Of a stretch of 34,039 bases of DNA, positions 5,574-33,966 are shown one piece after another. The notes beneath the pieces are model-generated. The model saw only the letters and a program-made list of their open reading frames with translations. It was not told the DNA's origin and searched no databases. The stretch is from an uncultured Gammaproteobacteria bacterium. Its GTDB lineage: Bacteria > Pseudomonadota > Gammaproteobacteria > SZUA-152. Positions within the stretch are counted from its first letter, which is position 1; each line of letters starts with the position of its first letter. The position numbers and the translations under genes are program-made. The stretch covers positions 1-34,039 of the forward strand of contig CAJVYS010000024.1 in assembly GCA_913009875.1 (NCBI GenBank), written 5' to 3'.

Positions 5574-5643
5574 GTAGGAGCGGACCCCCGGGCCGCGATG
5601 ACAATGCCTGGTCATCCATCGCGGCCCGGGGGTCCGCTCCTAC
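5574..5643. repeat. REP-like palindrome, family 2 (GTAGGAGCGGACCCCCGGGC)
   Basis: Two arms of about 29 bases (GTAGGAGCGGACCCCCGGGC and complement) are nearly perfect inverted repeats around a short loop. It sits between dgkA and the kinase gene. Related arms (GTAGGAGCGGGCC type) occur at 28526-28716. Just after it, CTCTGTGCCTCTGTGG (5685-5700) resembles the family-6 arm at 33915-33930. Confidence 0.85.
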
Positions 5644-8771: not shown

Positions 8772-11700
8772 ATGCCTGACTCAGTCAACTTCCATTTTCT
8801 GCATGAACATGACCCGGTATTTCTGCCGCTCGCTGCTGCGGCAGAGCGGGCTTTTGCGAGCGACCCCAACACGACACTGATCAAACTCCGCCAGCTAGGC
8901 GAGGCACTGGCACAAGACCTCGCCGCCAGATCGGGGATTGCTTTTGACGAAACCACCACCCAGGCCGATCTGCTCTGGAAACTCCATCGAGAGATTCACC
9001 TCGACCCGACGATTCGAGAGATTTTTCACACCCTGCGCATCGAAGGAAACAGGGCGGCGCATCAATTCAGCACACAACACAAGGAAGCGATGGCTGGCCT
9101 GAAAATGGCCCGCGCCCTGGCCGTGTGGTTCCACCAAAGCTTCGGTAGGCAGGGAACCCGATTCAAGCCCGGACCTTTCACACCACCGCCAGACCCCAGC
9201 CATCAGCTTTGCAGCCTGCAAACGGAAATCGATCGGCTCAAGGCGCAATTAATCGATTCAAGCCAACAGGTGGAATCCAACCAGCAGCTGGCCGAACTGA
9301 TGGCCCGCGAGAAAGAGGAATACGCCGAACTCGCGGAGCAAATGGATGCCGAGGCGCGGACCTATGAGCAATTGGCAATGGACGCCGAGGCTGAGCTGAA
9401 TAGGCAGAAAACAGCGTTTGAACACCGTCTCGCGGAGCTTCAGTCCCGTCAAAAAGAAACGCCGCCCGATACCGGCAAGGTCATCAAGGAAACCCGGCAG
9501 GCCTCAGCCTCCTTTACCTTGAATGAGGAACTGACCCGCATCCTGATTGATCAACAGCTGATCCAGGCCGGCTGGCAGGCCGATTCGCAGACGCTGACCC
9601 ACAAGAAAGGCGCGCGTCCTGAAAAAGGCAAAAACCTCGCCATAGCAGAATGGCCCACCGTGGGCCGGCAATCGGCCGATTATGTGCTGTTTGCCGGTCT
9701 GACGCCCCTCGCCGTCGTCGAGGCCAAACGCGAAAACAGCAACGTCGCAGGCAAAATACGCCAGGCCGAACGTTACGCCGCCGGTTTTTCGCCCAGTGCC
9801 AACATGACACCCGCCTGGGCCGTGGAAGACCGCACCATCGCCTGGCCCTCAGGCGAAGAGGGACACTACCAGATACCCTTTGCCTACTCCTGCAACGGCC
9901 GGCCGTTGATCAAACAACTCGCCGAACAATCGGGCACCTGGTTTCGTGACCTGCGCAGCCCCGCCAACCTGGCCCGGCCACTGCAGGACTTTCATTCCCC
10001 CGCAGGTCTGCTCGACCGCCTCACGCGCAGCCGCGCGGCCGCGGAAGAAAAGCTCAACGCCGAAGGCTTCGGCTACCTCAAGTTGCGCGACTACCAGATC
10101 AGGGCCATCCAGCATGTTGAACAGGCGCTGAGCCACAACCAGACAAACTGCCTGCTGGCCATGGCCACCGGCACCGGCAAGACCCGCACCATCATTGGCC
10201 TGATGTATCGCTTTCTCAAGGCCGAGCGTTTCAGGCGCATCCTCTTTCTGGTCGACCGCACCGCCCTCGGCCAACAGGCCCTCGATACCTTCAACGACGC
10301 GCCGCTGGAGCAGAATCAGACCCTCTCGAAAATCTACAACGTCGCCGAACTGGGCGACATGGCCGCCGAGGCGGAGACCCGCATCCAGGTCGCCACCGTG
10401 CAGGCCATGGTGCGGCGCATCTTTCAATCCGACCAGCCGCCACTGGTGGATCAGTTTGACTGCATCATCGTCGACGAGGCCCATCGCGGCTACACCCTCG
10501 ATCAGGAAATGACCGAGGGTGAACTGGCGGTGCGCGACCAGAGCCAGTACCTCTCCAGCTATCGCCGCGTGCTCGACTATTTCGACGCCGTGAAAATCGG
10601 CCTCACCGCGACGCCGGCAAAACAGACCACCGAGATCTTCGGCAGGCCGGTCTACACCTATTCCTACCGCGAAGCAGTGGCCGACGACTGGCTCATCGAC
10701 CACGAACCGCCCATCCGTTACGAAACCCTGCTCAGCAGGCACGGCATCAAGTTCGACAAGGGAGAGGCGGTCAGCGTCATCGACACCCGCACCGGCGAGG
10801 TGGACACCGCCGAGCTGGATGACGAACTGAATTTCGAGGTGGGATCCTTCAACCGGCGCGTGATTACCGAAGGCTTCAACCAAGTGATCTGCGAACAACT
10901 GGCCCAGGAGCTGGACCCGGCGGGCGACGAAAAGACCCTGATCTTCTGCGCCACCGACCTGCACGCCGACATGGTCAAGCGCCTGCTCGACACCGCCTTC
11001 AAGGATCTCTACGGCGACGACTACGTTGAAGCCGCCGTGCGCAAGATTACCGGCGCCAGCGACAAAGTGGACCAGCTCATCCGCCAGTACAAAAACGAGC
11101 GTTATCCCTCCATCGCCATTACCGTCGATCTGCTCACCACCGGCATCGACGTGCCGCCCATCTGTCACCTGGTATTCCTGCGCCGGGTGTGCTCGCGCAT
11201 TCTTTACGAACAAATGGTCGGCCGTGCCACCCGCCGTTGCGACGACATCGGCAAGACCGTGTTCAAAATCTACGATCCGGTGGATATCTACGCGGCCCTG
11301 CAGGACGTCAGCACCATGAAGCCGCTGGTCAAGGACGCCAATATCCCGATGGAACAGCTGGTGCGGGAACTCGGCGACCCGAAAAGTTTCAAGACCCCCG
11401 GCAGCCAGCCCGACACCCGCCATGCCGACGACGTGCTCGACGCCCTCGGCCAGCGCGTCATGCGTACCCTGCGCAAGGCCACCCACCTGGCCGAAAAACG
11501 TCCCGAGCTGAAGCAGAAGCTCGACGAACTGGAACAACTCTGGGGCGTGGAGCCGGGCAAGCTGCACAGCCACCTGCACAAAATGGGCGCGAAAAAGGCA
11601 CAGGCCTTCGTCGCCACCCACCCGAACTTCGTCAATCAGATCGACGAGGTGAAATGGTTCATCGGTTCCGAGCGCCGGCCGCCGATCTACGAAGGCAAAG

Positions 11701-12254
11701 ACAAACTCATCAAACGCACCCAAAGCTACGGCGTCAACGAAAAACCCGCCGACTACCTCGACAGCTTCAACACCTTCATCCGCGACCAGCTCAACCAGTC
11801 AGCCGCGCTATCGGTGGTGGTTAAACGGCCCAAAGACCTCACCCGCGAACAGCTCAAAGAGGTGCGCCTGCTGCTCGACCAGCACGGCTACAGTGAGGCC
11901 AGCCTGCGCAGCGCCTGGCGCAACCAGGCCAACCACGAAATCGCCGCCAGCATCATCGGCTACATCCGCCAGGCCGCCCTGGGCGAAGCACTGATCCCGT
12001 TTGAACAGCGAGTGCAGAATGCCATGGGCAACATCTACGCCCAGCACGACTGGACGCCCATTCAGCGCAAATGGCTGGCACGCCTGGCCAAGCAGCTCAC
12101 CCACGAGGTGGTCATCGACCACGACTTCGTGAATCGTGCCTTTGCCGCCAACGGCGGAGCCAAACAGCTGGACAAGATCCTCGGGCAGCAGCTCGACGAA
12201 GTGGTGGAGCGGCTGTCGGAATCGCTGTGGGAGAGTGATAGGTCGACGGGGTAA
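8772..12254 (+). CDS. hsdR: Type I restriction endonuclease subunit R (EcoEI/type IB-like)
   Basis: This 1160-residue motor and nuclease subunit of a type I restriction system translocates DNA and cuts it far from the recognition site. Order of domains: an N-terminal DUF4145-like helical domain (about 30-125); a charged coiled coil (about 145-225); a PD-(D/E)xK nuclease with Asp303, Glu317 and Lys319 (SADYVLF...VVEAK); and a superfamily 2 helicase with Walker A MATGTGKT (464-471) and DEAH (568-571). Then come the second RecA-like domain (LLTTGIDVPP, QMVGRATRR) and the C-terminal EcoEI_R_C-type region that docks on the methylase. All catalytic motifs are intact, so restriction is likely active. 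The ribosome site is weak. It is the first gene of the island and is separated from hsdM by an AlbA_2 gene. Confidence 0.95.
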   Translation: MPDSVNFHFLHEHDPVFLPLAAAAERAFASDPNTTLIKLRQLGEALAQDLAARSGIAFDETTTQADLLWKLHREIHLDPTIREIFHTLRIEGNRAAHQFSTQHKEAMAGLKMARALAVWFHQSFGRQGTRFKPGPFTPPPDPSHQLCSLQTEIDRLKAQLIDSSQQVESNQQLAELMAREKEEYAELAEQMDAEARTYEQLAMDAEAELNRQKTAFEHRLAELQSRQKETPPDTGKVIKETRQASASFTLNEELTRILIDQQLIQAGWQADSQTLTHKKGARPEKGKNLAIAEWPTVGRQSADYVLFAGLTPLAVVEAKRENSNVAGKIRQAERYAAGFSPSANMTPAWAVEDRTIAWPSGEEGHYQIPFAYSCNGRPLIKQLAEQSGTWFRDLRSPANLARPLQDFHSPAGLLDRLTRSRAAAEEKLNAEGFGYLKLRDYQIRAIQHVEQALSHNQTNCLLAMATGTGKTRTIIGLMYRFLKAERFRRILFLVDRTALGQQALDTFNDAPLEQNQTLSKIYNVAELGDMAAEAETRIQVATVQAMVRRIFQSDQPPLVDQFDCIIVDEAHRGYTLDQEMTEGELAVRDQSQYLSSYRRVLDYFDAVKIGLTATPAKQTTEIFGRPVYTYSYREAVADDWLIDHEPPIRYETLLSRHGIKFDKGEAVSVIDTRTGEVDTAELDDELNFEVGSFNRRVITEGFNQVICEQLAQELDPAGDEKTLIFCATDLHADMVKRLLDTAFKDLYGDDYVEAAVRKITGASDKVDQLIRQYKNERYPSIAITVDLLTTGIDVPPICHLVFLRRVCSRILYEQMVGRATRRCDDIGKTVFKIYDPVDIYAALQDVSTMKPLVKDANIPMEQLVRELGDPKSFKTPGSQPDTRHADDVLDALGQRVMRTLRKATHLAEKRPELKQKLDELEQLWGVEPGKLHSHLHKMGAKKAQAFVATHPNFVNQIDEVKWFIGSERRPPIYEGKDKLIKRTQSYGVNEKPADYLDSFNTFIRDQLNQSAALSVVVKRPKDLTREQLKEVRLLLDQHGYSEASLRSAWRNQANHEIAASIIGYIRQAALGEALIPFEQRVQNAMGNIYAQHDWTPIQRKWLARLAKQLTHEVVIDHDFVNRAFAANGGAKQLDKILGQQLDEVVERLSESLWESDRSTG

Positions 12255-13818: not shown

Positions 13819-14000
13819 AGGTCGGTATGACTTTGTTTGAGCGTTGTTTGACTGGCGCGGCTCCGTTCTGGAGGTTGTTTTATAGATATACTTAAGAATC
13901 AGTCAGTTATGTTGCTGTTTTTGTTTGACTGGTGTTTGATTTCACAAAAATGACACGGCAATAATCAAAATAAGCTACCCGATCAATAAATAGAGAGTCT
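13819..14000 (+). promoter_or_regulatory. A+T-rich gap upstream of hsdM with 12-base direct repeats
   Basis: TTGTTTGACTGG occurs twice, at 13844-13855 and 13921-13932 (77 bases apart), and GTTTGAGCG is a partial third copy just before the first. The region between is A+T-rich (TTTTATAGATATACTTAAG) and could hold a promoter for hsdM-hsdS. Direct repeats of this kind could bind a regulator. Confidence 0.4.
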
Positions 14001-15614
14001 ATGAAAAACACCCAAATCGTCCAGAAACTCTGGAACCTCTGCGATGTGCTGCGCGACGACGGCATCAACTACTCCGACTACGTCACCGAGCTGGTGCTGT
14101 TGTTGTTCATCAAGATGGAATACGAACAGGCGCAGGCGGACGTAAAGTTCGACCACAAGCTGCCCGCGGGCTGCCGCTGGCCCGATTTGCGCGATCAGTC
14201 CGGCCTCAACCTGCTCAACGCCTACCGGCAGATACTGCTGGATCTGTCCAAGAGCGACGACCCGCTCATCGCCGCCATCTACGCCGATGCCCAGACCCGC
14301 CTGCGCGAGCCGCGTCATCTGGAGCAGTTGATCAAAAGCCTCGACGCCATCGATTGGTTCAGCGCCCAGCGCGATGGCCTTGGCGATCTCTACGAAGGGC
14401 TGCTGGAAAAAAACGCCAGCGAGACCAAATCGGGTGCCGGCCAATACTTCACTCCGCGGCCGCTCATCGACAGCATCATCCACTGCATCAAGCCTCAACC
14501 ACTGGAAAAAATTCAAGACCCGGCCGCCGGCACCGCCGGTTTTCTCATCGCCGCCGACCGCTACATCAAACAGCACACCGACGAACTGTTCGATCTCAAG
14601 GAGAAGGACCGCAAGTCCCAGATCTACAAGGCCTTCATCGGCATGGAGCTGGTGCCCGGCACCCGCCGCTTGGCGCTGATGAACTGCCTGCTGCACGGCA
14701 TGGAAGGCGATGACGAAGGCGTGGTGCTTCTGGGCAACACCCTCGGCCTGCCCGGCACCCGACTGCCCCGTGCCGACGTGATCCTCACCAATCCGCCCTT
14801 CGGCACCGCCAAGGGCGGCGGCGGGCCAACGCGGGACGACTTCACCTACAAGACCAGCAACAAGCAGTTAGCCTTCCTGCAACACATCTACCGCAGTCTC
14901 AAACCCGGTGGCCGTGCCGCCGTGGTGCTGCCCGACAACGTATTGTTCGAGGCCGGTGTTGGCACCGAGATCCGCCGCGACCTGATGAACAAGTGCAACC
15001 TGCACACCCTCCTGCGCCTGCCCACCGGCATCTTTTACGCCCAGGGCGTCAAGACCAATGTGTTGTTCTTCACCCGCGGCACCGCGAAAAACCCCGAACA
15101 GGAAGAAAACTGCACCAAAAATGTCTGGGTCTACGACCTGCGCAGCAACATGCCCAACTTCGGCAAACGCACCCCCTTCGGCGCGCAACACCTTAAGCCG
15201 TTTGAAAAGTGCTACGGCAGAAAGGCCGACGGCACCAGCAAACGCACCGAAGGCGAATGGAGCTTTACGAATACCAACAAAGCCAAAAATAACCATTCCC
15301 TCTCCCTTGAGGGAGAGGGCCAGGGTGAGGGTGAAAGCCCAACCGAAGAAACCTCACGCTGGCGCTGCTTCACCCGCGGTTACATTCGCGAACAAAAAGG
15401 CGACTCCCTCGACATCAGCTGGATCAAGGACGAAGACAGCATCGACACCGCCAACCTGCCCGAACCCGAGATCCTCGCCGCCGAAGCCATGAGCGAACTC
15501 ACCGAAGCCCTGCGTGAACTGGATGGATTGATGCTGGCGCTGGGGGCCGGGGATGAGGCCGAGGCGCAGCGGGGGGTGTTGGTTGAGGCGTTGGGGCTTG
15601 GAAATGACAAATAA
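14001..15614 (+). CDS. hsdM: Type I DNA methyltransferase subunit M (N6-adenine)
   Basis: The 537-residue modification subunit methylates adenine in the site chosen by HsdS, protecting host DNA, and is also part of the restriction complex. It has the N-terminal helical HsdM_N domain (IVQKLWNLCDVLRDDGINYSDY), the AdoMet motif DPAAGTAGF (173-181) and the catalytic motif NPPF (264-267). YFTPRPLIDSI precedes the AdoMet site. At residues about 432-446 the sequence HSLSLEGEGQGEGESP is encoded by a genomic palindromic repeat inserted in frame (15298-15333). It sits in a loop region before the C-terminal part (FTRGYIREQKGDSLDISWIKD), so the protein may still work. The gene overlaps hsdS by 11 bases. 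Confidence 0.95.
   Translation: MKNTQIVQKLWNLCDVLRDDGINYSDYVTELVLLLFIKMEYEQAQADVKFDHKLPAGCRWPDLRDQSGLNLLNAYRQILLDLSKSDDPLIAAIYADAQTRLREPRHLEQLIKSLDAIDWFSAQRDGLGDLYEGLLEKNASETKSGAGQYFTPRPLIDSIIHCIKPQPLEKIQDPAAGTAGFLIAADRYIKQHTDELFDLKEKDRKSQIYKAFIGMELVPGTRRLALMNCLLHGMEGDDEGVVLLGNTLGLPGTRLPRADVILTNPPFGTAKGGGGPTRDDFTYKTSNKQLAFLQHIYRSLKPGGRAAVVLPDNVLFEAGVGTEIRRDLMNKCNLHTLLRLPTGIFYAQGVKTNVLFFTRGTAKNPEQEENCTKNVWVYDLRSNMPNFGKRTPFGAQHLKPFEKCYGRKADGTSKRTEGEWSFTNTNKAKNNHSLSLEGEGQGEGESPTEETSRWRCFTRGYIREQKGDSLDISWIKDEDSIDTANLPEPEILAAEAMSELTEALRELDGLMLALGAGDEAEAQRGVLVEALGLGNDK
15298..15333. repeat. CCCTCTCCC-family palindromic repeat inside hsdM
   Basis: CCCTCTCCCTTGAGGGAGAG followed by GGCCAGGGTGAGGG matches the intergenic repeats at 19595-19632 and 19658-19696. 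It is read in frame within hsdM. Confidence 0.85.
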
Positions 15615-16962
15615 AAATACCGTAGGTTGGGTTGTTACAATATTTACGGATGTGCTTGATGTTCAGGGAGGCACTCAACCACCAAAATCACAATTTATCT
15701 CGGAACCAAAAGACGGCTACGTGAGGCTGCTACAGATTCGTGATTTTGGTAAAAAACCCGTCCCCACCTATGTACCCGATACAACAAAACTGAAGAAGTG
15801 TTCTTCCGATGATGTGCTTATCGGAAGATATGGGGCATCGCTTGGTCGAATCTGTTCTGGAATGGAAGGGGCATACAACGTTGCTCTGGCTAAGATAATT
15901 GCGCCGACTGAACTCGATACATCTTTTATTCGATATTATCTGCTTGGAGATTTGTTTCAGCACCCATTGAAATTACTATCACGTTCCGCCCAAAATGGCT
16001 TCAACAAAAAAGATTTGGGGAGCTTTGATTTTGTGCTCCCACCCCTAGCCGAACAAAAACAGATCGCCGCCAAACTGGATCAACTGCTGGCGCGGGTGGA
16101 GCGCCTCAAAACCCGCCTCGACACCATCCCCACCATCCTCAAACGCTTCCGCCAATCCGTCCTCGCCGCCGCTGTCAGCGGGCGGTTGACGGAGGAGTGG
16201 CGGGGAGAAAATGGTTTAGACAATCCAGATTTAACACCAATTAATGAGTTTTCTCAGCTTGTAACAAAAGGAGCGTCTCCGAAATGGCAGGGCATTAGCT
16301 ACGTTGAAGACCCATCTCAAACACTATTTGTTACAAGTGAAAATATAGGAACTATGGATCTTCTTCTTTCTAAAAGAAAATATGTACAAGATGAGTTCAA
16401 TGAAAAACAGAAACGTTCTGTACTTCATTGCGGCGATGTTTTAACAAACATTGTGGGAGCATCAATTGGCAGAGCAGCTGTTTGGAATAGAAGTGACAAA
16501 GCAAACACAAACCAAGCTGTATGCATAATCCGACCAATACGGAAAAAGTGTTTAGCGCAATATCTTTGTTTTTATCTAAATAGCCCGGCTGGTATAGACA
16601 AACTTTTAGGAAATAAAGTTGATGTTGCAAGAGCAAATGTTAGTTTGCGCTCCGTGAAAGAATTACAAGTTCTCTTGCCAGAACTGAAAGAACAAACCCA
16701 AATCGTCCACCGCGTCGAACAGCTCTTCGCCTTCGCCGACCAGATCGAACAGCGGGTCAAGGTCGCCCAGTCGCGCGTCAATCACCTCACCCAGTCCATC
16801 CTCGCCAAAGCCTTTCGCGGTGAACTCACCGCCGAGTGGCGCGCACAGAATCCGCACCTGATCAGCGGCGAACATTCCGCCGAGGCGTTGTTGCAACGTA
16901 TCAAGGCGCAACGCGAATCCGCCCCCGCCAAAAAACGCCGCCGCAGGAAAAGCCCGGCCTGA
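15604..16962 (+). CDS. hsdS: Type I restriction-modification specificity subunit S
   Basis: This 452-residue subunit recognises the bipartite DNA site for both methylation and restriction. There are two target-recognition domains (about 1-145 and 200-357). Each is followed by a conserved helical spacer: PPLAEQKQIAAKLDQLL with FRQSVLAAAVSGRLTEEW (about 146-199), and ELKEQTQIVHRVEQLF with LTQSILAKAFRGELTAEW (about 358-430). The recognition domains are visibly A+T-rich, while the spacers are G+C-rich like hsdM, a sign that recognition domains were exchanged. The start ATG at 15604 overlaps the end of hsdM by 11 bases. The recognised sequence cannot be deduced. A basic tail KKRRRRKS ends the protein. 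Confidence 0.95.
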   Translation: MTNKNTVGWVVTIFTDVLDVQGGTQPPKSQFISEPKDGYVRLLQIRDFGKKPVPTYVPDTTKLKKCSSDDVLIGRYGASLGRICSGMEGAYNVALAKIIAPTELDTSFIRYYLLGDLFQHPLKLLSRSAQNGFNKKDLGSFDFVLPPLAEQKQIAAKLDQLLARVERLKTRLDTIPTILKRFRQSVLAAAVSGRLTEEWRGENGLDNPDLTPINEFSQLVTKGASPKWQGISYVEDPSQTLFVTSENIGTMDLLLSKRKYVQDEFNEKQKRSVLHCGDVLTNIVGASIGRAAVWNRSDKANTNQAVCIIRPIRKKCLAQYLCFYLNSPAGIDKLLGNKVDVARANVSLRSVKELQVLLPELKEQTQIVHRVEQLFAFADQIEQRVKVAQSRVNHLTQSILAKAFRGELTAEWRAQNPHLISGEHSAEALLQRIKAQRESAPAKKRRRRKSPA

Positions 16963-17010
16963 TACCGCCGTGTAGCATGCAGCCAAACAGCCCGGAAAAT
17001 CTCCCTAGTC

Positions 17011-17060
17011 ATATGCGCGATGCTTGCCATTGCGTCGACTTACGCATATAAATGGGGCAT
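17011..17060 (+). promoter_or_regulatory. Promoter and inverted repeat of the AbiEi gene; probable leaderless start
   Basis: A -35 TTGCCA (17024-17029) and -10 TATAAA (17047-17052) are separated by 17 bases. The expected first transcribed base coincides with the ATG at 17059. An inverted repeat ATATGCG (17011-17017) / CGCATAT (17043-17049) brackets the promoter and covers the -10, a plausible autorepression operator for an AbiEi antitoxin. Confidence 0.5.
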
Positions 17061-17877
17061 GGCTTCACTTGACCACTATATCGACGAGTTGCTCTCCCGC
17101 GGCCGGGCCTGGTTCTCCCGGGAAGAGGCGCTGGATGCTCTGGGTGTGGGCTCCGCCGCCTTTATCGCTGCGGCCCGCCGGTTGTGCAAAAAACAGCGGC
17201 TGGTGAGTCCCCGCCGTGGCTTTTATCTGATTCTGCGACCGGAGGATCGAGTGGCAGGGGCGCCTGACCCGGTGCGCTGGATCGACCCGTTGATGCATTA
17301 TCTCGGCCTCGACTATCGTATTTCCCTATTACGGGCAGCGGCTTTTCATGGCTCTTCACACCAGGCGGCGATGATCTTTCAGGTGATCGTCCCGAAGCAG
17401 TTACGGTCATTCGAGATTGGCCGTCATCGGCTCCAGTTCATTTATCAAACCCCCCTGATTTTTGCCAAAACCAATTTGCCCGAGGCACTTGCGCAAGTGA
17501 AAAGCGAGGCGGGCTTTGCCAGGGTGGCAGGCATAGAGCTGACGCTTCTGGACTGCACCCGTTATTTCCATAAGGCCGCCGGCATCAATAACGTAGCCCA
17601 GATTGTTCAGGATCTCGGTGCCAGGGCCGAGCCACGCATATTGGCAAAAGCCGCCGCAGCCTATGAGAATTCGGCTGTGCGCCGGCTTGGATATCTGCTG
17701 GAGCACGCAGGGCATGCATGCCAGGCCAAAGCCTTGGAACCGTATGCCAGGAAGGCCAAGTCCATGAAGCCACTGGATCCTTCTGCCAAACCGCTGAGCG
17801 AATCAATTGCAGAAATTCACGAAAAAGATGCCAAGTGGCTGCTGGTGATCAATGAACCCGTGGAGATCGACTTTTGA
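17059..17877 (+). CDS. AbiEi-type antitoxin
   Basis: The 272-residue protein belongs to the AbiEi antitoxin family of type IV toxin-antitoxin/abortive infection systems. Family members have an N-terminal winged helix that represses their own promoter and a C-terminal domain that counters the AbiEii nucleotidyltransferase toxin. The winged-helix part is visible (MASLDHYIDELLSRGRAWFS, then SAAFIAAARRLCKKQRLVSPRRGFYLI), followed by the family core (WIDPLMHYLGLDYRISLLRAAAFHG, GIELTLLDCTRYFHKAAGI). The frame is open up to 17020, but the start at 17059 fits the family and the promoter. It overlaps the toxin gene by 4 bases (TTGA). The gene looks intact although the toxin is truncated. Confidence 0.85.
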   Translation: MASLDHYIDELLSRGRAWFSREEALDALGVGSAAFIAAARRLCKKQRLVSPRRGFYLILRPEDRVAGAPDPVRWIDPLMHYLGLDYRISLLRAAAFHGSSHQAAMIFQVIVPKQLRSFEIGRHRLQFIYQTPLIFAKTNLPEALAQVKSEAGFARVAGIELTLLDCTRYFHKAAGINNVAQIVQDLGARAEPRILAKAAAAYENSAVRRLGYLLEHAGHACQAKALEPYARKAKSMKPLDPSAKPLSESIAEIHEKDAKWLLVINEPVEIDF

Positions 17878-18239
17878 TTCCTGCCTCATTTATTCAAGAG
17901 TGGCGCAGCAGATCGCCCTGGCCGGATGCGAGACAGGTGGAACAAGACCTGATCATCTCCCGTGCCTTGTGCGACCTGTTCAATTCACCCGCCTTGGCGG
18001 GCAAGATTGCTTTTCGTGGCGGGACCGCGATCAACAAATTGCTTTTCCAGCAACCCTTGCGCTATTCGGAAGACATCGACTTGGTGCAGATACAGGCGGA
18101 GCCTATCGGCACCGCAATCGACGCCATGCGTGAGGCCCTTTCATGGTTGGGTAGTTGCAGTCGGTCTCAAGCAAGCCCGGATGTAATGAAATCCGGGGGT
18201 GTGGAATGCGCGCCTACGTGTTTGATGATGTCGTTGTAG
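17874..18239 (+). pseudogene. AbiEii toxin (nucleotidyltransferase), truncated
   Basis: This is the N-terminal third of an AbiEii nucleotidyltransferase toxin, starting at TTG overlapping the antitoxin stop. The first 93 residues match the family: FRGGTAINKL (47-56) and RYSEDIDLV (63-71) hold the GG and DxD motifs of the nucleotide-binding site. After WLG (about 18152) the family match ends. The remaining 28 codons are unrelated and run through two palindromic repeats (18177-18197, then 18236 on). Full-length members are near 300 residues, so the later catalytic motifs are missing. The toxin is most likely inactive, leaving an orphan antitoxin. Confidence 0.85.
18177..18197. repeat. Small palindrome CCCGGAT...ATCCGGG in the truncated toxin tail
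   Basis: CCCGGAT (18177-18183) and ATCCGGG (18191-18197) flank GTAATGA. It belongs to a repeat type often seen between genes of proteobacteria and begins about 25 bases after the point where AbiEii similarity is lost. Confidence 0.6.
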
Positions 18240-18309
18240 GTTGGTGGTGAGCCTGCGAACCCCAACGTCGCCGGTGGTGTTGGGGTTCGCAGGCTCACCA
18301 CCAACCTAC
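18236..18309. repeat. Large palindrome GTAGGTTGGTGGTGAGCC between abiEii remnant and nrdB
   Basis: Perfect 31-base arms (GTAGGTTGGTGGTGAGCCTG... and complement) surround a 12-base loop. It lies between the convergent toxin remnant and nrdB and could act as a two-way terminator. It marks the right edge of the defence island. Confidence 0.9.
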
Positions 18310-18329
18310 GGAAGGTAAATCCAACAACA

Positions 18330-19511
18330 TCACCAACTCAGGCCACCGCCGGTCTGGTATTCCGTCACGCGCGTTTCAAAAAAGTTCTTTTCCTTGCGGA
18401 TGTTGGACTGTTCGTCCAGCCACGGTAACGCGCATTGCGCGCCGGGGAAGGGTTCGTCGACGTTGAGCTGGCGGGCGCGGCGGTTGGCGATGAAGCGGAA
18501 TTGTTCGAGGTGATCTTCAGCGTTGTAGCCGAGGATGGGCCCGCGCAGGATGTATTGGGCATAGGCCTTTTCGGCCGCTTCGGCTTCGTCCCACATGTGG
18601 CGCAGGGCTTCTGGGTCGGGGCTGATATTTTCTTCCTGCATCAGTTGTTTGACGGTGCGGATGCCGAAGCCGCAGTGCATTACTTCGTCGCGCATGATGT
18701 ATTGCAATTGTTCGGCAGTGCCTTTCATCAGGCCGCGGCGTTGCAGGGCGAAGATGGGGCTGAAGCCGTTGAAGAACCAGCAGCCTTCGAACACGGCGGC
18801 GAAGAAGATGTACGCCATGAGGAATTCCTGCAGGTCGTCGCGGTTGGTCAGGTCCATGTCAGAGCGCAGCACGGAGTTCAGGCGGCGGTTGGCGATTTTG
18901 ATCTTGCCGTAGATCTCCGGCACCACGCGATAGCGGTTGTAGATTTCGCCCTGATCCAGGCCGATGGTTTCGATGCAGTGCTGGTAGGTCCAGGTATGCA
19001 GGGCTTCTTCGTAGACCTGTCGCGCCTGGTAGATCTGCAGTTCCGGCGCACTCATTTTTTCCATCACCGCCAGGCCGACATTGCGCATGGCGAGGATGTC
19101 GGAGGTGGTGAGGTAGGCCAGCACGTTTTCGTAGACGTGGCGTTCGTTGTCGCTGAGTTTGTGGTGGTAGTCCTGCACGTCCTGCGCCATGTTGATGTCC
19201 AGCGGCGTCCAGTGGTTCTTGTTGGCGTTGAGAAAATAATTCCACGCCCACGGGTATTTGAACGGTGCGAGCTGGTTGACGTCGGCCAGACCGTTGACCA
19301 CGCGCTTGTCTTCGGCGCGCACGGGTTCCAGCTTGCTGCTGTCGTCATCGGCCATCCCGCTGAGCATGGCCTGCACCACGGGTTCGAGGGTTTCCTGTGT
19401 TTGCGTTTGTTCCGGCGCGACTTGCGTCGTCGTTTGCGGCGTGGTCTCAACGGCCTTTTCAGGCTCGGGCTTGCGGGGCTGTGTTTGCAAGGGGTCGTCC
19501 CAGTTCAGCAT
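18330..19511 (-). CDS. nrdB: Ribonucleoside-diphosphate reductase class Ia, beta subunit
   Basis: This 393-residue radical-generating subunit pairs with NrdA to make deoxyribonucleotides aerobically. The di-iron ligands and radical site align with E. coli NrdB: Asp138, Glu169, His172 and Tyr176 correspond to Asp84, Glu115, His118 and Tyr122, and the later ligands are in RDEVMHCGFG. The radical tyrosine is present, so this is not the tyrosine-less class Ic type. An extra Gln/Thr/Pro-rich N-terminus (about 1-60) precedes the core. The C-terminal tail binds NrdA. The ATG at 19511 is preceded by AAAAAGGAG. It lies 260 bases after nrdA and shares its direction, so they are likely cotranscribed through a repeat-filled gap. 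Confidence 0.96.
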   Translation of the reverse strand: MLNWDDPLQTQPRKPEPEKAVETTPQTTTQVAPEQTQTQETLEPVVQAMLSGMADDDSSKLEPVRAEDKRVVNGLADVNQLAPFKYPWAWNYFLNANKNHWTPLDINMAQDVQDYHHKLSDNERHVYENVLAYLTTSDILAMRNVGLAVMEKMSAPELQIYQARQVYEEALHTWTYQHCIETIGLDQGEIYNRYRVVPEIYGKIKIANRRLNSVLRSDMDLTNRDDLQEFLMAYIFFAAVFEGCWFFNGFSPIFALQRRGLMKGTAEQLQYIMRDEVMHCGFGIRTVKQLMQEENISPDPEALRHMWDEAEAAEKAYAQYILRGPILGYNAEDHLEQFRFIANRRARQLNVDEPFPGAQCALPWLDEQSNIRKEKNFFETRVTEYQTGGGLSW

Positions 19512-19594
19512 GATGATCTCCTTTTTTACTCGCCGGCCTGTATTTTTCAACAGGGGTTTCGGAATCCATATCTCGGCGGCAATGTTGTTTTACT

Positions 19595-19696
19595 CCCTCG
19601 CCCCTTGGAGGGGAGAGGGCTGGGGTGAGGGGTGACAAGCTCCGTGGCTTATTCTTGAACCCTCACCCTAACCCTCTCCCAGTTTTGGGAGAGGGG
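19595..19696. repeat. Pair of inverted CCCTCTCCC-type repeats in the nrdA-nrdB gap
   Basis: CCCTCGCCCCTTGGAGGGGA plus GAGGGCTGGGGTGAGGGG (19595-19632) and an inverted relative (19658-19696, AACCCTCACCCTAACCCTCT...) form a large hairpin. The same family occurs within hsdM. The nrdA-nrdB gap (19512-19771) holds this and no gene that I can see. Confidence 0.85.
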
Positions 19697-19771
19697 ACAG
19701 TCAGACATTTAGCGAATTAAGAAGCTTTAGTCGCATGCACAAGTCTCCGGTTTTACCCAGTGAAAGATTCA

Positions 19772-22576
19772 CTACTGACAGGCTTCGCAGTCGGGGTTGT
19801 CGATGGAGCATACCTTCGGCGCGTCGTCGCTGACGGCATGGGCGGCGCTCTTTTCGACGTGGGTCGCGCCCAGCGTGCGCAGGTAATAGGTGGTCTTGAG
19901 TCCGCGTACCCAGGCCAGTTTGTAGAGGCTGTCCAGCGTCTTGCCATCGGGTTCCGCCAGATACAGATTCAGCGACTGCGCCTGATCCAGCCATTTCTGC
20001 CGGCGGCTGGCGGCCTCGATCAGCCAGCGGGAATCGATTTCAAAGGCCGTGGCATATTTTTGTTTCAGGGCCTCGGGAATGCGCTCGATACCGCTCACGG
20101 AACCGTCGAAATATTTCAGGTCGTTGACCATCACTTCATCCCACAGGTTCAGCGCCTTGAGGTCGGCGACCAGGTAGGGATTGACCACGGTGAACTCGCC
20201 CGACAGGTTCGATTTCACGAACAGGTTCTGATAGGTCGGTTCGATGGATTGCGATACGCCGCAGATATTGGAAATGGTCGCGGTGGGCGCGATGGCCATA
20301 CAATTCGAGTTACGCATGCCGACGCCCTTGACACGCTCGCGCAGGCTGTCCCAGTCCAGGGTGGTGGTTTCATCGGTATCGAGAAAACGTCCGCGTTCTT
20401 CGCGCAGCTTGTTCAGCGAATCGTAGGGCAGGATGCCCTGGCTCCACAGCGAGCCCTCGAAGCTCGAATAGCGGCCACGTTCCTCGGCCAGCTGGCTGGA
20501 TGCGGCAATGGTGAAGTAGGACACGGCCTCCATGCTTTGATCGGCGAAGGCGACGGCCTCCGCGGAGGCGTAGGGCAGGTCGAGTTTGTACAAGGCGTCC
20601 TGAAAACCCATGATGCCCAGGCCCACGGGGCGGTGACGCAGGTTGGAATTACGCGCCTGCGGCACGGCGTAATAATTGTATTCGATGACGTTGTCCAGCA
20701 TGCGCATGGCGGTGTTGATGGTGCGCTGCAGCTTGTCCCTATCGAGGCCGTTTTCCGTGACGTGGGCGGCCATATTGACGGAGCCGAGGTTGCACACGGC
20801 GATCTCTTTTTGCGAGGTGTGCAGGGTGATCTCGGTACACAGGTTGGAGCTGTGCACCACGCCCACGTGCTGGTTGGTGTAACGGATGTTGCAGGGGTCC
20901 TTGAAGGTGATCCACGGGTGGCCGGTTTCGAACAACTGGCCGAGCATCTTGCGCCACAGGGTCACGGCGGGGATGCGCTTGAACAGCTTGATCTCGCCGC
21001 GGTCGGCCATGGCCTCGTAGGCCTCGTAGCGTTCGCGGAAGGCTTGCCCGGTGAGGTCGTGCAGGTCCGGGGTTTCGTTAGGTGAGAACAGCGTCCACTC
21101 GGCTTCGTCGGCGACGCGTTCCATGAACAGATCCGGTACCCAGTTGGCGGTATTCATATCGTGGGTGCGGCGCCGTTCGTCACCGGTGTTCTTGCGCAGT
21201 TCGAGAAATTCCTCGATGTCGATGTGCCAGGTTTCCAGATAGGCGCACACCGCGCCCTTGCGCTTGCCGCCCTGATTGACGGCCACGGCGGTGTCGTTGG
21301 CGACTTTCAGGAACGGCACCACGCCCTGCGATTCACCGTTGGTGCCCTTGATGTGTGAACCGAGGCCGCGCACGGGCGTCCAGTCGTTGCCCAGTCCGCC
21401 AGCAAACTTGGACAGCAGGGCGTTGTCCTTGATGGCGTTGTAAATGCCCTCCAGCGAGTCCGGCACGCTGGTGAGATAGCAGGACGACAGCTGCGGACGC
21501 AGGGTGCCGGAATTGAACAGGGTCGGCGTCGAACTCATGAAATCGAAGGACGAGAGCAATGTATAGAATTCGATGGCACGTTCTTCGCGGTCGATTTCGT
21601 TGATCGCCAGGCCCATCGCCACGCGCATGAAAAAGGCCTGCGGCAGTTCCAGGCGTTGGCTGTTGCTGTGAATGAAATAGCGGTCGTAGAGGGTTTGCAG
21701 ACCGAGGTAGGTGAATTGCAGATCGCGCTCGGGCTGGATGGTCTGGCCGAGGCGGGCGAGGTCGAAACGGGCCAGCTCGGGGTCGAGCAATTCCAGTTCG
21801 ATGGCGGCGTGGACGTAGTCGGCAAAATAGTCGCCGTACTGCGCATTCATGGCCTGCTGGTCGATGTGCGGCAGGGGCGCCTTGTGCAGGAATTGCAGGG
21901 CTTCCTGGCGCATGGCGTCCAGCAGCAGGCGGGCGGAGACGGCGGAATAATTCGGCTCGCGTTCGATCTGTGTGCGCGCACTCATCACCAGTGCAGTGGC
22001 GACATCGTTTTCGGCAATGCCGTCGAACAGGTTGCGCTGGGCGTCGTGCAGGATCAGCTCGGCATCCACATCGCTGAGACCGGCGCAGGCGGCGTCGATG
22101 ATGCGCTTCAGCAGCGTCATGTCCAGCGCCTGACGCTCGCCGTTGTTCAGGGTAACGTGAATTGGCTGTTCCGCGCTCTCGACCACGGACTCGCTGCGCT
22201 GGCGGGCGTGTTCTTCGCGGTACAGCACATAGGCGCGGGCTATTTTGTGATGACCGTTGCGCATCAACGCCAGTTCGACCTGATCCTGAATGTCTTCGAT
22301 GTGCACGGTGCCGCCATCGGGCAGGCGGCGGAACAGGCCGTCGCTGACCTGTTGCGTGAGCTGCGTGGCGATGTCGCGGATGCGGTGGGAATCCGCCGCG
22401 TGGCTGCCTTCCACGGCGAGAAAGGCCTTGGTGACGGCGACCTGAATCTTCGCCGCATCGAAGCCGGTCAACTGACCGTTGCGGCGAATGACCTGGTAGT
22501 GACCGTAGTCGTTTTGTGCCTTGGATGTGTGGTCGGCGGTGTGCGTGGCAGCAGCTAATGACGCGTTAGTGTGCAT
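19772..22576 (-). CDS. nrdA: Ribonucleoside-diphosphate reductase class Ia, alpha subunit
   Basis: The 934-residue catalytic subunit reduces ribonucleoside diphosphates. It has an N-terminal ATP-cone (HYQVIRRNGQLTGFDAAKIQVAV...) followed by a second cone-like region, giving the long form known from Pseudomonas (usual E. coli length 761). The catalytic cysteines are in SSCYLTS, SSNLCTEI and IAVCNLGSVN. The radical-path tyrosine pair is in TTYYLRT, and the redox tail ends DNPDCEACQ. The ATG at 22576 has GAGG upstream; the frame stays open further but only into the leader. A B12 riboswitch lies 190 bases upstream on the same strand. Because ATP-cones sense dATP/ATP, the enzyme is also controlled allosterically. 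Confidence 0.96.
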   Translation of the reverse strand: MHTNASLAAATHTADHTSKAQNDYGHYQVIRRNGQLTGFDAAKIQVAVTKAFLAVEGSHAADSHRIRDIATQLTQQVSDGLFRRLPDGGTVHIEDIQDQVELALMRNGHHKIARAYVLYREEHARQRSESVVESAEQPIHVTLNNGERQALDMTLLKRIIDAACAGLSDVDAELILHDAQRNLFDGIAENDVATALVMSARTQIEREPNYSAVSARLLLDAMRQEALQFLHKAPLPHIDQQAMNAQYGDYFADYVHAAIELELLDPELARFDLARLGQTIQPERDLQFTYLGLQTLYDRYFIHSNSQRLELPQAFFMRVAMGLAINEIDREERAIEFYTLLSSFDFMSSTPTLFNSGTLRPQLSSCYLTSVPDSLEGIYNAIKDNALLSKFAGGLGNDWTPVRGLGSHIKGTNGESQGVVPFLKVANDTAVAVNQGGKRKGAVCAYLETWHIDIEEFLELRKNTGDERRRTHDMNTANWVPDLFMERVADEAEWTLFSPNETPDLHDLTGQAFRERYEAYEAMADRGEIKLFKRIPAVTLWRKMLGQLFETGHPWITFKDPCNIRYTNQHVGVVHSSNLCTEITLHTSQKEIAVCNLGSVNMAAHVTENGLDRDKLQRTINTAMRMLDNVIEYNYYAVPQARNSNLRHRPVGLGIMGFQDALYKLDLPYASAEAVAFADQSMEAVSYFTIAASSQLAEERGRYSSFEGSLWSQGILPYDSLNKLREERGRFLDTDETTTLDWDSLRERVKGVGMRNSNCMAIAPTATISNICGVSQSIEPTYQNLFVKSNLSGEFTVVNPYLVADLKALNLWDEVMVNDLKYFDGSVSGIERIPEALKQKYATAFEIDSRWLIEAASRRQKWLDQAQSLNLYLAEPDGKTLDSLYKLAWVRGLKTTYYLRTLGATHVEKSAAHAVSDDAPKVCSIDNPDCEACQ

Positions 22577-27050: not shown

Positions 27051-27112
27051 TCTGTACTCCGTCAAGGTAATAAATTTGGACGCAGCGCTCCTGTGGTGTT
27101 TCGGTCGTTGGT

Positions 27113-27234
27113 GTAGGGTGCTGGTGAGCGGTAGCGAACCGCACCGTTCGCGTGGACCGGGTGTCGAGCGTTGGTCATTGAGGCGGTCACCGTTCCCGAC
27201 CGATGCGGTTCGCTACCGCTCACCGGCATCCTAC
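27113..27234. repeat. Palindrome GTAGGGTGCTGGTGAGCGGT
   Basis: Arms GTAGGGTGCTGGTGAGCGGT...GAACCGCA and TGCGGTTCGCTACCGCTCACC...CTAC are inverted copies around about 60 bases. It is a repeat unit like those in the other gaps, with GTAG/CTAC ends. Confidence 0.8.
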
Positions 27235-27269
27235 AAGGCTTCTTGAAAATTATTGCAGATTGGGAAAAA

Positions 27270-28525: not shown

Positions 28526-28716
28526 GTAGAAGCGGACCATGCCCGCGATGGACAGTGTCCTGTATGTGCATTGTGTGTGGGAGCGGCTTCAGCCGCGAAT
28601 TTGGTAACCCTGATGCACTATTCGCGGCTGAAGCCGCTCCCACAGTTGTTACATACCGATTAGGCCTGACTGGCCTGTGCTCGAGAGGATTCATCGCGGG
28701 CATGGCCCGCTCCTAC
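28526..28716. repeat. Nested palindromes: family 2 around family 1
   Basis: The outer arms GTAGAAGCGGACCATGCCCG (28526-) and its complement ending GCCCGCTCCTAC (28692-28716) differ at two of 25 bases. Inside lies the complete family 1 hairpin (28576-28644, TGTGGGAGCGGCTTCAGCCG). The gap 28506-28742 holds nothing else. Confidence 0.85.
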
Positions 28717-33596: not shown

Positions 33597-33966
33597 GGAT
33601 TCATAGTAAGGAGGCTGGGCGGCGGGTGCAACCGGGATTGTTGTTCAGTCATTAGCCACAGAGACACGGAGTACACAGAGATTTCTTGGCGTTTCCTTGT
33701 TTTCCTCGTTACACCGTTCTGCGGTGTAACGGCCCTGCGGGATAAATCTGTCACGAGTGAGGTGGCGCTGAGCGCCACAGGATGTGTGACACCGCGGAGC
33801 GGTGTCACAAGCCCAAGAATCCTGGTCAGCAATTATTTTGTGGGAGCGGCTTCAGCCGCGAAGGCTGTTTCACACGTCATTCGCGGCTGAAGCCGCTCCC
33901 ACGAAGATAACTTTCTCCGTGTCTCTGTGGTGGATAATGAATCAGCGCGTGGAAAGGTGATTGCCG
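33597..33966. repeat. Gene-free composite repeat region upstream of yqgE
   Basis: Outer inverted arms CCACAGAGACACGGAG (33656-33671) and CTCCGTGTCTCTGTGG (33915-33930) enclose four smaller hairpins. These are GTTACACCG/CGGTGTAAC (33710-33730), GTGGCGCT/AGCGCCAC (33762-33778), TGTGACACCGC/GCGGTGTCACA (33785-33809) and the family 1 palindrome (33840-33902). I see no gene here; yqgE's promoter must be in its right part. Confidence 0.75.

Follow-up and report, generated by a model that had tools for sequence, protein, structure and literature searches.

The window, that is, the entire stretch of 34,039 nucleotides that was analysed, contains a type I locus in which the gene for the modification subunit HsdM is accompanied by genes for the restriction and specificity subunits (Table 1). 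HsdM can be assigned to type IA from the presence of the HsdM_N and N6_Mtase domains, an NPPF motif, the linked hsdS and hsdR genes and a closest match to the EcoKI M protein, which is also its best solved relative (2y7c/2ar0, E ~1e-202) and the target of the fold match. In an alignment of 80 homologues, the linker of HsdM is bounded by the motifs HLxPFE and SRWRxFSR, varies in length from 21 to 71 residues and accounts for 49% of all inserted residues, with most of the others lying around residue 80 and close to the C-terminus. An AlphaFold model based on a 64-sequence alignment has a mean pLDDT of 84, with residues 424-444 as the sole segment below 50; it was used instead of a model from 25 close homologues, which was poor (mean pLDDT 61).

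It is this linker that holds a palindromic repeat of the form CCCTCTCCCTTGAGGGAGAGGG-CCA-GGGTGAGGG, made up of CCCTCTCCC (15298-15306), TTGA, GGGAGAGGG (15311-15319), CCA and GGGTGAGGG (15323-15331), with a perfect stem of 10 bp and a loop of 2 nt. The original prediction of a genomic repeat that codes in frame inside hsdM is borne out by this 34-nt motif, as are the roughly 12 residues rich in Leu, Glu and Gly that it was said to encode. The predicted start at 15298 is also correct, but the repeat ends at 15331 and not at 15333. Both of the sequence pieces that had been proposed are present; the second, GGGTGAGGG, is not a separate add-on but belongs to a known triplex motif, TM, as its third strand. 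The claim that the repeat is otherwise intergenic at 19595-19696 agrees with the two copies of opposite orientation found there. A search of positions 14000-20500 against Rfam returned no RNA family matches.

Table 1. Features of the type I locus and its surroundings, and palindromic repeats in the linkers of HsdM homologues
Feature	Position	Strand	Basis
hsdR restriction subunit, 1160 aa, intact	8772..12254	+	Pfam HSDR_N, ResIII, EcoEI_R_C
hsdM, 537 aa, type IA (EcoKI-like) modification subunit with in-frame repeat	14001..15614	+	Pfam HsdM_N, N6_Mtase; EcoKI M match
Interdomain linker, hypervariable (about residues 403-452), joining catalytic domain and C-terminal segment	15207..15356	+	80-homologue alignment, AlphaFold
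Palindromic TM repeat (hairpin with third strand) encoding residues 433-444 SLSLEGEGQGEG	15298..15331	+	sequence, reading frame, genome motif scan
hsdS specificity subunit, intact	15604..16962	+	Pfam Methylase_S
Intergenic TM copy, CTG spacer	19595..19632	+	sequence, genome motif scan
Intergenic TM copy, TTA spacer, inverted relative to the copy at 19595..19632	19660..19696	-	sequence, genome motif scan
L019: TM, same place as in window	linker		
L021: decayed TM, then second repeat	linker		
L046: decayed TM	linker		
L070: TM, closer to N-terminal end	linker		
L093: TM variant	linker		
L018 (same genus as window): CGTC-tagged palindrome	linker		
L095: GTAG-tagged repeat	linker		
L078: long GTAGGTTGGG hairpin	linker		
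L146: decayed TM	linker		
L147: two CCCCCCTTT palindromes	linker		
L156: GTAGGTTGGG	linker		
L158: ATTCCGGCATGGAT	linker		
L160: degenerate TM	linker		

Several further repeats were observed in the window. The AbiEii toxin gene (17874-18239) is cut to 121 aa, with its frame stopping at an inverted repeat (18236-18309, GTAGGTTGGTGG...) that is perfect over 31 bp, and the AbiEi antitoxin gene is intact. Another palindromic repeat of the GTGGGAGCGGCTTCAGCCGCGAA type occurs in three copies (1831-1898, 28576-28644 and 33835-33902), and long inverted repeats are found at 5574-5643, with perfect arms of 27 nt, and at 27112-27235, with arms of 39 nt that are 90% complementary. Inverted 39-nt sequences lie at both contig ends (1-39 and 33967-34005), which we take to resemble an Illumina adapter.

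Identity and genomic copies of the repeat

Judged by its sequence, the HsdM repeat is a copy of TM, an intrastrand-triplex motif of bacteria (Holder et al. 2015, PMC4666352), as it follows the scheme CCCTCNCCC - loop - GGGAGAGGG - 3-nt spacer - GGGTGAGGG. It differs from copy TMECO no. 2 of E. coli K-12 (CCCTCTCCCTTGAGGGAGAGGGTTAGGGTGAGGGT; PMC4666352) solely in the spacer, which is TTA in E. coli and CCA in hsdM. All 23 of the 23 TM copies in E. coli K-12 are intergenic (PMC4666352), a placement that does not hold here, where TM codes for part of HsdM and also lies in the coding sequence of an N6_N4 methylase. Membership of the family by sequence is not affected by this, since intergenic placement is an observation on the E. 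coli copies, not a criterion of sequence.

The host genome is a draft, metagenome-like assembly of 3.56 Mb in 211 contigs, in which a motif scan gave 16 matches to the perfect GGGAGAGGGNNNGGGTGAGGG core at 13 dispersed sites, compared with none for a reversed control pattern in the same 211 contigs; the repeat in HsdM is therefore not a product of chance. Disordered linkers are frequently of low complexity, which is the one point for reading the segment as a Glu/Gly-rich linker that arose by chance and is unconnected to any genomic repeat. Against this stand the match over 34 nt to a defined palindromic motif and the 15 further perfect core copies with none for the control, so that the likelihood of a chance linker is close to nil.

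The methylase gene with the second coding copy lies elsewhere in the host genome (contig C134 of G000, L016, 1169-2989), where TM is read on the opposite strand and encodes approximately GTLTPALSQGERG in a 606-aa DNA methylase (PF01555). As the homologues of this methylase (L224 and L225) align poorly at the TM segment, an empty site is not cleanly shown for this gene. On contig C88 of the same genome (L010, 1168-1542), a TM repeat encodes the tail at the C-terminus of a DUF559 protein.

Palindromic repeats in the linkers of HsdM homologues

Comparison of the window HsdM with its homologues, which had been suggested as a check, showed that the segment is missing from all of them except L019, the only one among 80 with an intact TM copy at the corresponding place; L021, L046 and L146 have copies that have decayed. 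Recognisable palindromic repeats are nevertheless found in the linkers of eight of the 80 homologues (L018, L019, L021, L046, L070, L078, L093 and L095), and a wider sample drawn from Methylomonas family genomes contributed L146, L147, L156, L158 and L160. By sequence, palindromes of at least six unrelated families have entered the linker in frame, namely TM, CGTC-tagged, GTAG-tagged, the GTAGGTTGGG hairpin, CCCCCCTTT and CCGGCAT. The families other than TM were initially spotted by eye; most of these inserts have extra copies elsewhere in the genome of their own host, with the L095 insert being represented only by its own copy among the matches listed for its host genome. TM copies were likewise found in the host genomes of the TM inserts. 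As relatives carry unrelated repeats in the same loop, it can be regarded as a recurrent and tolerated landing site. The original prediction had held insertion of such a repeat into a functioning protein to be rare; this is not supported, as the same linker was struck repeatedly by several unrelated palindromic families and a second methyltransferase gene of the genome also contains the motif in frame.

The preference for the linker can also be expressed in numbers. In 620 kb of HsdM loci, chosen regardless of repeats, five TM matches are located in the linker and two in the intergenic region of the window, with none in HsdM outside the linker or in neighbouring genes. The density of perfect hairpins in the linker is 5.9 times that of the remaining hsdM sequence (p = 0.0007, with related sequences counted as independent). 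The segment could also be read as an artefact of assembly or binning. Imperfect trimming is suggested by what look like adapter remnants at the contig ends, and the window comes from a draft of 211 contigs, but the reading frame is kept, the repeat is nested in HsdM sequence that is conserved on both sides, and this repeat recurs at the equivalent position in L019, from an independent assembly, which makes an artefact very improbable.

In a tree of HsdM built with the linker left out, sister proteins carry different repeats: TM in the window HsdM and a CGTC-tagged palindrome in L018, TM in L070 and GTAGGTTGGG in L078, and TM in L093 and a GTAG-tagged repeat in L095. L156, with GTAGGTTGGG, is the sister of the repeat-free L085. 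Sisters with different repeats require several independent insertion events; for the window HsdM and L019, a single ancestral insertion, instead of two, may underlie both copies. Divergence between sisters peaks in the linker and drops again behind it. L156 and L085 are 96% identical upstream of the linker, while the linker block of L156, repeat included, finds its best match in the distant L078 (324 nt, 71%), which suggests, at the level of sequence, that a linker block has moved together with its repeat between distant hsdM lineages. Recombination exchanging the entire C-terminus of HsdM was also considered and proved inconsistent across the pairs.

Probable tolerance of the inserts and the state of HsdM

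Outside the linker, dN/dS is 0.12 between the window HsdM and L018, 0.10 between the window HsdM and L019, and 0.04-0.16 for other pairs. These values place the HsdM proteins under purifying selection, at present or until recently. Because the surrounding coding sequence is under such selection, the inserts are probably tolerated and the window HsdM is probably functional. Of the predicted coding repeat in a working HsdM, the in-frame coding is shown and the working state probable, given the intact frames of hsdR, hsdM and hsdS, the catalytic motifs and a dN/dS of about 0.1. The opposite reading, in which HsdM was damaged by the insertion or the system has lost its activity in some other way, with the frame open by luck in a decaying gene, could draw on the truncation of the linked AbiEii toxin gene; it appears unlikely in view of the same intact frames, conserved catalytic motifs and low dN/dS, and of the intact frames in many homologues with other linker inserts.

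The explanation that we consider very probable is that a dispersed repeat of the TM family landed in the flexible linker that joins the catalytic domain of a type IA-like HsdM to its C-terminal segment, and was kept since the frame was preserved and the linker accepts additional residues. HsdM would have remained active, with the 12 encoded residues as near-neutral passengers, and the linker inserts in general are most likely passengers that a disordered linker tolerates. The clustering of repeats in the linker would then reflect selection on the site of survival, other parts of HsdM being intolerant. This explanation is supported by the identity of the repeat, its genomic multiplicity, the in-frame reading, its absence or replacement in homologues, the predicted disorder and the recurrence at the linker.

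There is some small chance that the linker repeats are functional instead, either through residues that tune HsdM or through repeat DNA that drives local recombination and reshuffles the linker beside the exchangeable hsdS. The association of E. coli TM loci with rearrangement (PMC4666352), the sharp local replacement of linker blocks, as in L156, and the strong difference between the HsdS proteins of the window and L018 (39%) would fit, but the change in divergence across the linker is not consistent between pairs and many homologues have short linkers free of repeats. A more specific proposal, equally doubtful, is that the linker of hsdM actively captures repeats. Palindromic and triplex-forming repeats that land there would make it a recombination junction, through which linker blocks would pass from one hsdM allele to another, distant one, and the M subunit would diversify next to the exchangeable hsdS.

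Tolerated insertion into the linker, the preferred reading, would mark a loop of type I methyltransferases that accepts foreign sequence. With repeats of at least six unrelated families in a single loop of one protein family, and with sisters that differ in their inserts, it amounts to a natural replicate experiment on the conversion of noncoding repeats into protein; such replicates in one loop make the insertion rate, the frame constraint and the tolerance measurable.

Comparison with known repeat systems

In the open-access literature, no description was found of repeats in HsdM or of one loop recurrently struck by many repeat families. In-frame palindromic repeats as such are already known from the RPEs of Rickettsia (reviewed in PMC10969869) and the intragenic REPs (PMC3733652), and what is new is a single loop colonised again and again by many families together with a coding copy of a motif that is intergenic in E. 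coli.

The M subunit of EcoKI (2AR0, 2Y7C) is of the same protein family, with 53-56% identity to the window HsdM in the structural match, but it has a linker of its own that is free of repeats. With TM and its TMECO copies, the window repeat has in common the sequence, the layout of a hairpin plus third strand, the A and B spacer types, the dispersed multicopy occurrence and the inverted A + B pairs. Pairs of type A and type B in inverted orientation have been described in E. coli (PMC4666352), and the intergenic pair at 19595-19696 has the same layout. The difference lies in the placement, as TM/TMECO copies are intergenic in E. coli K-12 and one copy is here coding and in frame in HsdM.

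A REP is recognised by a terminal GTAG or CGTC tag on its palindrome and by copies that flank a RAYT/Y1 transposase gene. The window repeat starts with CCCTC, and no TM repeats were present near the 16 Y1_Tnp matches of the host genome, within flanks of up to about 1.5 kb or less where contigs end earlier. As TM is missing near all 16 matches in these flanks, mobilisation of TM by a RAYT is not supported here. Intragenic REPs are known from several genera, frequently in genes for DNA synthesis and repair, with no mention of restriction or methylase genes in the main text of that account (PMC3733652). They are alike in lying inside genes, and the inserts of L095 (GTAG) and L018 (CGTC) resemble their types, but they carry the tag that the window repeat lacks.

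A close parallel in behaviour is offered by the RPEs, palindromic elements that lie in frame within protein-coding genes of Rickettsia and are apparently tolerated there (PMC10969869, PMC3733652). The HsdM repeat behaves in the same way, being a dispersed palindrome that is read in frame in a conserved protein, missing from most homologues and apparently tolerated. The RPEs of those accounts, however, are about 150 bp long and occur in many unrelated proteins, whereas here one loop of one protein family has taken up many families of repeats.
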